Assembly (NCBI GenBank): GCA_020630525.1
Contig: JAHDBF010000012.1
Span: forward strand, 3,397 to 38,045
Length of the DNA stretch: 34,649 nucleotides
Direction of reading: 5' to 3'
DNA from: Saprospiraceae bacterium
GTDB lineage: Bacteria > Bacteroidota > Bacteroidia > Chitinophagales > Saprospiraceae
Shown: piece after piece, positions 28,989 to 34,618 of the stretch
Position numbering within the stretch: the first letter of the stretch is position 1
How the letters are laid out: every line of letters starts with the position of its first letter
Notes under the pieces: generated by a model
The model's database searches: none
What the model saw: the letters and a program-made list of their open reading frames with translations, nothing else
What the model was told of the DNA's origin: nothing
Made by a program: the position numbers and the translations under genes

Positions 28989-30356
28989 ATGAATAAGTTT
29001 TTCGAGACACTAAGGAATATTTGGAGTATTAAAGAATTGCGTGAAAGAATTACATTCACATTATTAATTCTTGCAGTATACCGATTAGGATCTTTTATTG
29101 TTTTACCTGGCGTTAATGCCTCCGCATTGGATACAGCTGCTGCTGCAAGAGGAGCGAATGATATCTTAGGTTTAATCAATACCTTTTCTGGTGGTGCATT
29201 TAATAATGCTGCAATATTTGCATTAGGTATTATGCCTTATATTACTGCATCTATCATTATCCAATTATTGGGATTCGCAGTTCCTTATTTCCAAAGACTA
29301 CAATCTAAAGAAGGGGAGTCGGGAAGAAAGAAAATTACTCAAATCACCAGATTACTGACTGTATTTATAACCTTAGTACAAGGTGGTGCATATCTTACTT
29401 ACATTAATTCCACACCAGGTGCAGTTAGTAGTTCTATCGATCCAACTATTTTCTGGATCAGTAATATTATTATTCTATCTACTGGTACAATATTCGCAAT
29501 GTGGTTGGGTGAGAAAATTACAGATAAAGGAATTGGAAATGGTATTTCTCTATTAATAATGATTGGTATTATTGCAACTTTACCAGTAGCATTTTTTGCA
29601 GAATTACAAACGCAGTTTGTTAGCTCTCCACTAATATTTATTATAGAAATAGCAGTTCTATTCTTAACAGTATTAGCAACAGTATTAATCGTCCAAGGTG
29701 TAAGAAGAATTCCAATTCAGTTCGCTAAAAGAATGGTTGGAAGAACTAATTCAAGTATGCCAGTAGCAGGAGCAAGAGATTATATTCCATTAAAAGTGAA
29801 TGCGGCAGGTGTAATGCCAATTATATTTGCTCAAGCGATTATGTTCTTACCAGTTTCTATCGGACAATGGTTGTCAAAAGATGGAGGCACTCCAGGTGAT
29901 TTTATATTGAGTTTATCAGATTGGAAGTCAATTCCATATAATGTTATATTCTTTTTATTGGTTGTATTATTTACTTATGTGTATACAGCATTATTAGTAA
30001 ATCCACAACAATATGCAGAATATTTAAAAAGACAAAATGCGTTTATTCCAGGCGTTAAGCCAGGTTTACCTACACAAGAATATATAGATTCATTAACGAC
30101 TAGAGTAACACTACCGGGTTCATTCTTTTTAGGATTGATATCTATATTCCCAGCATTTGTTGCTGCGGCGGGTGTAAATGATGCTTTTGCAATATTTTTT
30201 GGTGGAACATCATTATTGATTTTAGTAGCAGTAGTATTAGATACTTTACAGCAAATAGAATCATATTTATTACTTAGAAAGTATGATGGTCTAGTAAAGT
30301 CAGGAAAGGTAAAAGGACGTAGTAGTGGTATGCAAACAATTGGAGCTGGAATGTAA
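28989..30356 (+). CDS. secY: Protein translocase channel subunit SecY
   Basis: This 455-residue inner-membrane protein forms the channel of the Sec translocase with SecE and SecG. Ten hydrophobic helices can be traced from about residue 20 to 435. Conserved pieces are VYRLGSFIVLPGV in helix 1, the periplasmic plug region SGGAFNNAAIFALGIMPYITASIIIQLL, QRLQSKEGESGRKKITQ in the first cytoplasmic loop and WLGEKITDKGIGNGISLLIM. The cytoplasmic loop before helix 9 contains GVKPGLPTQEYIDS. Length is normal. adk, often next to secY in other phyla, is absent and map follows directly after 12 nt. Confidence 0.98.
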   Translation: MNKFFETLRNIWSIKELRERITFTLLILAVYRLGSFIVLPGVNASALDTAAAARGANDILGLINTFSGGAFNNAAIFALGIMPYITASIIIQLLGFAVPYFQRLQSKEGESGRKKITQITRLLTVFITLVQGGAYLTYINSTPGAVSSSIDPTIFWISNIIILSTGTIFAMWLGEKITDKGIGNGISLLIMIGIIATLPVAFFAELQTQFVSSPLIFIIEIAVLFLTVLATVLIVQGVRRIPIQFAKRMVGRTNSSMPVAGARDYIPLKVNAAGVMPIIFAQAIMFLPVSIGQWLSKDGGTPGDFILSLSDWKSIPYNVIFFLLVVLFTYVYTALLVNPQQYAEYLKRQNAFIPGVKPGLPTQEYIDSLTTRVTLPGSFFLGLISIFPAFVAAAGVNDAFAIFFGGTSLLILVAVVLDTLQQIESYLLLRKYDGLVKSGKVKGRSSGMQTIGAGM

Positions 30357-32943: not shown

Positions 32944-32983
32944 AAAATGGTCGGTAACTTTAAGTTATTGACCTCATTTTTTT
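32944..32983 (+). terminator. U-tailed hairpin between rpsD and rpoA, attenuator or processing site
   Basis: GGTCGGTAAC (32949-32958) pairs with GTTATTGACC (32964-32973) through ten pairs, two of them G-U, with a 5-nt TTTAA loop. A-T pairs extend the base (AAAAT with ATTTT) past a 2-nt bulge and a run of seven T (32977-32983) follows. The G-U pairs are stable only in the plus-strand RNA. Since rpoA and rplQ follow, it probably ends or slows only part of transcription. Confidence 0.55.
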
Positions 32984-33007: not shown

Positions 33008-34006
33008 ATGAGCATATTAAATTTTCAGAAACCTGACAAAATCTTATTACAAAAAGCAACTGATTTTGAAGGTACATTTGAATTTAAGCCTCTAGAGCCT
33101 GGTTTTGGTCAAACAATTGGAAACTCTCTAAGAAGAATTTTACTTTCTTCGCTAGAAGGATTTGCAATTACTGCCGTTAGAATTGCTGGTGTTGATCACG
33201 AATTTGCTACCATTAAAGGTGTAGTAGAAGATATGGTTGATATAATCTTAAACTTAAAGCAAGTTAGAATTAAGCCGCTTTTAGATGAGGATAATTTGGT
33301 TGAAGAGAAAATCTACCTTACTATTTCTGGTCAAGAACAATTCTTAGCAGGAGATATTGAGAAAAATACCAATGTTTTCAAAGTACTAAACCCAGATCAC
33401 TTAATCTGTAGAATGGATGCAACCGTAAATTTAGAAATTGAATTTACTGTTTCTAAAGGTAGAGGTTATGTTGGTGGAGAAGAAAATATTAGAAAAGATG
33501 CACCTATTGGGGAAATCGCAGTTGATGCTATTTATACTCCAATCAAAAAGGTAGCTTATAAAATAGAAAATACTAGGGTAGGTCAAAGAACAGATTATGA
33601 GAAATTACTCATGACAATTCAGACTGATGGAACTATCCATCCGGAAGAAGCGGTAAAATCTGCATCTAGAATTATGATCCAACACCTTATGCTAATCACG
33701 GACGAAAACATAACGTTCGAAGACGCAACAAAGAGTGATGACAATATCGTAGATGAGCACATCTTACATATGCGTAAGTTATTGAAAACTTCACTAGAAG
33801 ATTTAGATCTTTCTGTGAGAGCATACAACTGCTTGAAAGCGGCTAAGATTAACTCTTTAGGTGAAATGGTAAAATATGATACTCATGAGTTATTGAAGTT
33901 CAGAAACTTCGGTAAAAAATCATTGGTAGAAATAGAAGAATTATTACAAAACAAAGGCCTTACTTTCGGTATGGATCTTTCAAAATATAAATTAGACGAA
34001 GAGTAA
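33008..34006 (+). CDS. rpoA: RNA polymerase alpha subunit
   Basis: This 332-residue subunit assembles core RNA polymerase as a dimer. The N-terminal domain has [51 protein letters not shown] and, after about residue 150, [34 protein letters not shown]. The C-terminal domain (about 253-315) with [23 protein letters not shown] and [13 protein letters not shown] binds UP elements and activators. Length is standard. It lies 66 nt after rpsD behind the U-tailed hairpin and 129 nt before rplQ, the longest gap inside the ribosomal cluster. Confidence 0.98.
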
Positions 34007-34018
34007 TCTTCTCTGATT

Positions 34019-34107
34019 TAATCGCCCAGCTCGGCTAAAACGCCGGATTTATTTAACGCGATTTGTTTACTAAGAGAGTAATTTCCTAAAGCTGGAACTC
34101 AGGAAAC
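34019..34107 (+). ncRNA. Structured element between rpoA and rplQ (candidate cis-RNA)
   Basis: In the 129-nt gap, AATCGC (34020-34025) pairs with GCGATT (34058-34063), enclosing CGGC/GCCG (34032-34035 with 34042-34045, loop TAAAAC). TTAC/GTAA (34067-34070 with 34078-34081) forms a small stem, and TTTCCT/AGGAAA (34082-34087 with 34101-34106) a fourth hairpin. The loop of the last holds AGCTGG (34090-34095), the exact complement of CCAGCT (34026-34031) in the first element, so a pseudoknot or kissing contact is possible. The stretch is richer in G and C than flanking spacers. No T-run follows, so it is not a terminator. Confidence 0.4.
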
Positions 34108-34135
34108 TTAAAGTGATAAATCAAAATTAATTGTC

Positions 34136-34618
34136 ATGAGACACGGAAAAAAATTCAACCACTTAGGTAGAAAAAAAGGACACAGAAAAGCCTTGCTAAG
34201 AAACTTATCTTTATCTCTTATTGAGCATAAAAGAATCAATACAACCTTAGCAAAAGCAAAAGCTTTAAGAACACACATTGAGCCTATTTTAACTAAGGCT
34301 AAAACCAATACGCAACATTCAAGAAGAACAGCGTTTTCTTACTTACAAAGTAATGATGCACTTAATGAATTGTTCGGTGTTATTGCTGAAAAAATTGCAG
34401 ATAGACCAGGAGGATATTGTAGAATTATCAAGACTGGCACAAGAAAAGGTGATGCAGCTGAAATGGCAATGATAGAATTGGTTGATTTTAACACATTAAT
34501 GTTAGAAAACAAATCATCTAAGCCTAAGACAAGAAGAAGTAGAAGAGGTGGAGGAAAGAAAGCGGCAGCAGCAGTTGCAGCTCCAGTAGTCGAAAAAGCA
34601 TCTTCTGAGGAAGAATAG
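34136..34618 (+). CDS. rplQ: 50S ribosomal protein L17 with C-terminal extension
   Basis: This 160-residue tunnel-exit protein opens [45 protein letters not shown], then [29 protein letters not shown], the complete fold by about residue 125. The remaining 35 residues ([33 protein letters not shown]) are a Lys/Arg, Ala and Glu tail, seen as well in other Bacteroidota. It closes the cluster; the 31 nt left after its stop are A-rich and show no terminator before the window ends. Confidence 0.98.

Follow-up and report, generated by a model that had tools for sequence, protein, structure and literature searches.

A conserved pseudoknotted RNA between rpoA and rplQ in Saprospiraceae, probably a cis-acting leader of the ribosomal protein L17 gene

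Why the genes for RNA polymerase alpha and ribosomal protein L17 should stand well apart in a closely packed ribosomal gene cluster is the question raised by the end of a 34,649 nt stretch of DNA from a Saprospiraceae bacterium (GCA_020630525.1, contig JAHDBF010000012.1, contig positions 3,397-38,045, forward strand), the whole of which is here called the window. The cluster lies at the window's end, and the contig stops where the window stops. The two genes that bound the gap, in window positions, are:

33008..34006, + strand: rpoA (RNA polymerase alpha), the gene upstream of the element; ORF with Pfam RNA_pol_A_bac, RNA_pol_L and RNA_pol_A_CTD
34136..34618, + strand: rplQ (ribosomal protein L17), the proposed regulated gene; ORF with Pfam Ribosomal_L17

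The ORF coordinates bear out the gap of 129 nt (34007-34135) given by an initial annotation, whose remark that neighbouring gaps are mostly 2-30 nt is also fair; the seven other gaps, which separate the eight genes running from position 28989 to rpoA, measure 12, 29, 3, 2, 6, 22 (rpsK-rpsD) and 66 nt, the last (rpsD-rpoA) being the sole exception. The same annotation took the sequence to be richer in G+C than flanking spacers. The G+C content is 0.357 for the rpoA-rplQ gap and 0.416 for positions 34019-34107, and the statement holds against rpsD-rpoA (0.273) and rpsK-rpsD (0.227) but not against one 12 nt gap farther upstream (0.583). Between rpsD and rpoA the window also has a terminator-like hairpin (32949-32983) of 11 pairs, 4 of them G-C, followed by TCATTTTTTT, which suggests that rpoA is perhaps partly uncoupled from the preceding genes; by eye, rpsD-rpoA hairpins are also present in some of 12 relatives examined and absent from others.

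Read together with its relatives, the rpoA-rplQ gap of the window is composed of the following parts:

34020..34120, + strand: whole putative leader element; architecture conserved in relatives
34020..34025, + strand: P1 5' strand AATCGC; exact pairing with 34058-34063
34026..34031, + strand: pseudoknot 5' strand CCAGCT; covariation in 19 aligned spacers, and changes on the tree
34032..34045, + strand: P2 hairpin CGGC(6 nt)GCCG, adjoining the 3' end of the pseudoknot 5' strand; a hairpin here in 16 of 20 window-type spacers
34046..34057, + strand: A/U-rich linker, by its sequence; relatives also have an A/U-rich tail after P2
34058..34063, + strand: P1 3' strand GCGATT; shares 34062-34063 with the core lower strand
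34062..34066, + strand: 5' strand of the core lower helix, TTTGT; its partner is 34116-34120, and it is taken as homologous to NGCAN of the relatives
34067..34068, + strand: 5' side of the core internal loop, TT; mostly UA or UU in relatives
34069..34074, + strand: core upper helix ACT plus P4 AAG; partners at 34112-34114 and 34107-34109
34082..34106, + strand: P5 hairpin TTTCCT/AGGAAA with the pseudoknot strand in its loop; inner helix of varied sequence in 20 window-type spacers
34090..34095, + strand: pseudoknot 3' strand AGCTGG, in the P5 loop; exact match, covariation, and changes on the tree
34112..34120, + strand: core 3' strand AGT-G-ATAAA, in which G 34115 alone forms this side of the internal loop; ends 15 nt before the rplQ ATG

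The complementarity of CCAGCT and AGCTGG claimed at the outset is exact (34026-34031 with 34090-34095). Where four stems had been counted without being listed, those identified here are P1, P2, the core (with P4), P5 and the pseudoknot helix; the interval of 34019-34107 then proposed is slightly short because the core 3' strand (34112-34120) falls outside it. The complete core helix of the window reads TTTGT-TT-ACT-AAG ... CTT-AA-AGT-G-ATAAA. P1 is of narrower occurrence: by eye the same-genus relatives L002-L004 keep it as AATCGAT/ATCGATT and L005 has it broken, and it was not seen by eye in most wider relatives. As to termination, formerly dismissed for want of a U-tract, a scan of the gap shows no strong U-tract terminator and lists one weak candidate, the P2 hairpin (5 pairs) with ATTTATTTAA; the conserved core carries no U-run.

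In the window's sequence alone the element does not rise above chance, and its significance comes through relatives. Folded by itself the gap has a minimum free energy z-score of -0.57, with 52 of 200 shuffles folding as well, and at least one exact 6 nt complement occurs in 96.6% of 500 shuffles (9.8% when four or more G/C are required). The window's core is degenerate, with a G-U pair and neither the GCA nor the GAAG of its relatives; the core model described below finds no match to it even unfiltered, and the nested energy prefers another fold (-22.6 kcal/mol vs -9.9 for the nested part of the proposed structure, pseudoknot omitted). Assignment of the window therefore rests on relatives, among which L035, with a core of TTTGT-TA-AC ... 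GT-G-ACAAA, forms a bridge between the window's form and theirs. In that other fold of the window, 34014-34025 (the TGATTTA-ATCGC region) pairs with 34113-34123 (GTGATAAATCA), a competing helix which would sequester the core 3' strand; by eye it is apparently not conserved in the four same-genus relatives, and it could be either a switch or chance.

The relatives come from a collection by genome, in which rplQ was present in 36 of 40 genomes, counting that of the window, and 30 of the 36 became loci, and from a collection by RpoA of 80 named loci, mostly Saprospiraceae by title. Together 110 sources (109 loci and the window) gave 102 distinct spacers, because some genomes are in two collections (e.g. 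L002 and L031); L104 had no rplQ. Most of these spacers share a core, 5' NGCAN-UA-AC and 3' GU-G-N'UGC-GAAG, close to the rplQ start (about 20 nt before it); in the 7 of 102 with gaps below 50 nt it was not found. Among the 95 spacers of at least 50 nt, 78 pass when both core strands are anchored by sequence only, a number that includes spurious anchors (e.g. L002, L019, L027, L029). The variable pair beside the internal loop lies outside these anchors and is nevertheless complementary in 73 of the 78, vs a mean of 38.6 and a maximum of 52 in 10,000 shuffles; it is A-U in 39, U-A in 16, G-C in 11, C-G in 2, and G-U or U-G in 5. The first two pairs of the upper helix are more constant, A-U in 75 and C-G in 69 of the 78. 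A stricter rule (anchors and five of six pairs) retains 71 spacers, with a median of 20 nt from core end to rplQ start, and also passes 25 of 1,900 shuffled spacers.

Covariation supports the secondary structure of the core, as is expected of ribosomal protein leaders. In an alignment of 26 short-insert rows (A2), hand-chosen from 69 rows from which 13 named rows had been excluded, 93.7% of core cells are paired vs 83.6% in shuffled alignments and at most 51.7% when the strands are slid, and the covariation score is 0.300 vs 0.100, with 0 of 500 shuffles as high. The variable core pair has changed type at least 19 times on a protein tree of RpoA plus L17 (95 rows); the tree was made by a quick method and has support below 80 on 39 of 92 inner branches, so that counts of changes are approximate.

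The pseudoknot is found in a subset of spacers. Twenty such window-type spacers, the window and L002-L005 among them, were picked by eye with core strands set by hand; they include the near-copies L020/L107 and L039/L040, whereas L121 and L146, which also look window-type by eye, stand outside all counts, and L126 repeats L047. Their core strands are 38-44 nt apart with a helix between, and the core 3' end lies 13-18 nt before the ATG. The loop strand of the pseudoknot, 5-6 nt long, starts 21-24 nt upstream of the core's 3' strand, and its partner lies upstream of the core, mostly just 5' of a P2 hairpin that a rule locates at the expected place in 16 of the 20 (L020 doubtful). The paired strands differ widely: CCAGCU/AGCUGG, ACAGCU/AGCUGU, UCAGCU/GGCUGA (one G-U), UUGGCC/GGCCAA, AUGGCU/AGCCAU, ACGACC/GGUCGU, UCGGCC/GGCCGA, UCGACC/GGUCGA and GCGACC/GGUCGC, and in L036 and L037 the first pair is a U-U mismatch. 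In a MAFFT alignment of 19 of the 20 rows (A1; L005 was excluded for its long P2), 92.0% of pseudoknot cells are paired vs 73.4% shuffled and at most 45.1% when slid, the covariation is 0.690 vs 0.315, and five of the six pairs show changes on both sides. On the tree the six pairs require at least 6, 3, 2, 3, 0 and 6 changes, with G-U and unpaired states counted and with the registers of L047 and L055, which are misses in the A1 test, set by complementarity. When partners are permuted among the 20 spacers, the observed sum of best helices is reached in 0 of 20,000 permutations, although the best helix of L035 in this test is not the pseudoknot. Duplex energies between spacer halves, dominated by gapped duplexes, carried no information and were replaced by contiguous helices. 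The pairings that the initial annotation proposed to look for in close relatives are thus kept there with compensatory changes, the CCAGCT/AGCTGG contact included, and a conserved pseudoknotted RNA in the rpoA-rplQ gap is real.

Analogous contacts occur in the longer-insert spacers (ACAGGC/GCCUGU, AAGGGC/GCCCUU, ACAGGU/ACCUGU, UUGGC/GCCAA), where an exact complement lies downstream of 17 of 22 strands picked by hand. The signal is weaker there, permutations reaching the observed sum in 35 of 20,000 (29 spacers), and in 189 of 20,000 in a looser test (24 spacers) in which L098 and L106 are mis-anchored; L087 is mislocated in the P2 count. By eye no pseudoknot partner was seen for 41 anchored spacers outside the window type with core strands less than 45 nt apart. 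All 20 window-type spacers fall in a supported clade of 32 rows whose other 12 rows are not window-type, and the pseudoknot is therefore dispensable; one and the same core occurs both with and without it.

The core is specific to its place. A core model (R1) run on both strands of the 80 loci (383,337 bases) gives 58 matches at E <= 1 (49 at E <= 0.01), one per locus, all on the coding strand and all inside the rpoA-rplQ gap; 20 are seed spacers or copies of these and 38 are not. The remaining 22 loci, without a match, include most of the window type. Position thus speaks well for the cis-regulatory RNA first suggested, and the 38 non-seed matches place the element, in the manner of ribosomal protein leaders, upstream of the same ribosomal protein gene in many species. 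Genome-wide scans with the model at E <= 0.01 found it in 6 of 149 genomes of the order and 2 of 296 of the phylum (20-41 candidates scored per listed genome); these scans are insensitive, and spacers were therefore read directly in a wider sample of 100 regions, 99 of them readable (L171 gave no rplQ). Within the window's family (f1) the sequence-anchored rule finds the core in 6 of 9 spacers, and outside it in 0 of 90, only 44 of which are at least 45 nt long. A comparison with Rfam, advised earlier, matches no family to the element: at gathering thresholds the window has no match and 20 relatives have none except an off-target intron fragment in L021, and looser thresholds give chance-level matches only.

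The element is probably a cis-acting ribosomal protein leader for rplQ and no other gene of the alpha operon; its most likely ligand is L17, which would thereby block its own translation. That the element works at the RNA level, that it represses translation and that L17 binds it are what we infer from the structure, its covariation and its place before rplQ. L17 is favoured because rplQ directly follows the element and the ligand of a leader is often deduced from its regulated ribosomal protein gene, by what PMC7247131 calls the 'Only' principle. L17 would bind at the core, where two short helices flank a 2:1 internal loop, and in the window's lineage the upstream strand would lock onto the hairpin loop to form a pseudoknot holding this core. 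When L17 outnumbers 23S rRNA it would bind the folded leader and make it more stable; lying near the start codon, the leader may then hinder the 30S subunit and translation initiation, and L17 output would fall without lowering that of alpha or S4. Conservation of sequence around an asymmetric internal loop within covarying helices makes the core resemble a protein site. bL17 aids folding of H47-49, as described in PMC9935924; comparison of the element with 23S rRNA of E. coli and of one order-level relative gave no resemblance beyond chance, and a search for 23S rRNA in the window's genome gave no match. Likeness to the rRNA site of the ligand is common among ribosomal protein leaders but is not a requirement.

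Several known systems bear comparison. The L17 leader described for Actinobacteria and Proteobacteria (Eckert et al. 2020, PMC7247131) is, like the element here, upstream of rplQ as its only regulated ribosomal protein gene, and its ligand was likewise deduced to be L17 from that gene; L17 is named there among proteins not earlier known as leader ligands. However, it belongs to other phyla, and the likeness drawn here is one of position and deduced ligand. L17DE (RF01708; PMC2864571) is also a structured RNA tied to the L17 gene, but is described from Lactobacillales and Listeria as lying downstream of rplQ, whereas the element here is upstream and has no RF01708 match. No published L17 leader in Bacteroidota was found in the open-access literature searched, and the leader proposed here is not described in the sources searched.

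The main rival ligand is S4, a repressor of bL17 in E. coli, where a second S4 site upstream of rplQ has been proposed; by analogy S4 would repress L17 along with the first alpha operon genes through the element described here. As reported in PMC10931766, S4 represses bL17 but not alpha, and its known target in the same operon is, as here, a pseudoknot; the E. coli leader, however, precedes the first gene and encloses its ribosome-binding site, whereas the present element lies between rpoA and rplQ and has no Rfam match. The second site was deduced from the E. coli rpoA-rplQ sequence (Meek and Hayward 1984, cited in PMC10931766, where strong evidence for it is said to be lacking). In the 80 loci the core model has no match near rpsM, rpsK or rpsD (the rpsM start and at least 150 nt upstream were covered in 72, rpsD in 76), which counts against S4, but mildly, since diverged cores escape the model. 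For Bacteroidia and Flavobacteria, PMC7247131 describes S4 leaders that, although from the same phylum and gene cluster, are hairpins upstream of rpsD, where the window has a gap of only 22 nt. A second S4 site is unlikely, and the strong covariation, single regulated gene and defined pseudoknot of the element offer a direct test of S4 versus L17 in Bacteroidota.

Other explanations dispense with a repressor protein. The element might uncouple rplQ from rpoA at the level of transcription or mRNA fate, whether by ending part of the transcripts, by directing RNase processing or by shielding the rpoA 3' end: a hairpin of at least 8 pairs followed by four T precedes the core in 16 of 90 core-bearing or window-type spacers and is sometimes P2 itself, and TTTT occurs within 10 nt after P2 in 8 of the 22 longer-insert spacers and in 3 of the 20 window-type ones. 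The conserved core, however, lies downstream of such hairpins and close to the start codon, and the window's own candidate is weak, so that this explanation too seems improbable. The Bacteroidota use few Shine-Dalgarno sites, and the closeness of the core to the start codon, seen in most spacers that have it, would also suit a positive element, e.g. structured ribosome recruitment, with no protein ligand; this is quite improbable, since the surroundings of the internal loop and GAAG are kept while the helices vary, as suits a protein site, and the core is absent from the 90 sampled spacers outside f1. Chance folding of a functionless spacer would agree with the unremarkable single sequence of the window, but the repeated compensatory changes are against it, and for the shared core and pseudoknot chance is refuted by covariation; that the spacer has no function is hardly credible. 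Control of rplQ by L17 through the conserved core remains the preferred reading.

Other structures precede rplQ in more distant relatives. In family f20, eight of nine spacers (L141, L150, L152, L153, L159, L163, L166, L177) have upstream of rplQ a hairpin in which the conserved apex (A/T)TCCT(T)GACACGG tops a helix that varies in sequence (for example GGCTGTAATTCCTGACACGGTACAGCC), which is possibly another L17 leader; the sole Rfam match up to E 1 for all eight is a miRNA in L150 at E 0.37, chance-level and far below the gathering score. By eye, spacers of family f4 (L027, L130, L139, L180) have GCATACCTGATACGGTGC-like hairpins, with CTAGTACGG in L180, and two class-level genomes (L214, L217) have AATTCC...ACGG hairpins in the rpoA-rplQ gap. 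Tentatively, and with more doubt than confidence, L17 autoregulation may be ancestral in much of the Bacteroidota, in which case the Saprospiraceae core and the f20, f4 and class-level hairpins would have diverged from a single L17-binding RNA, the pseudoknot being a clamp often reshaped or lost. Finally, among the 16 spacers with a hairpin of at least 8 pairs and four T before the core, it stands in L009, L010, L046, L049, L058 and L092 just after rpoA, as if rplQ were transcriptionally insulated, whereas in others such as L069 it is P2.
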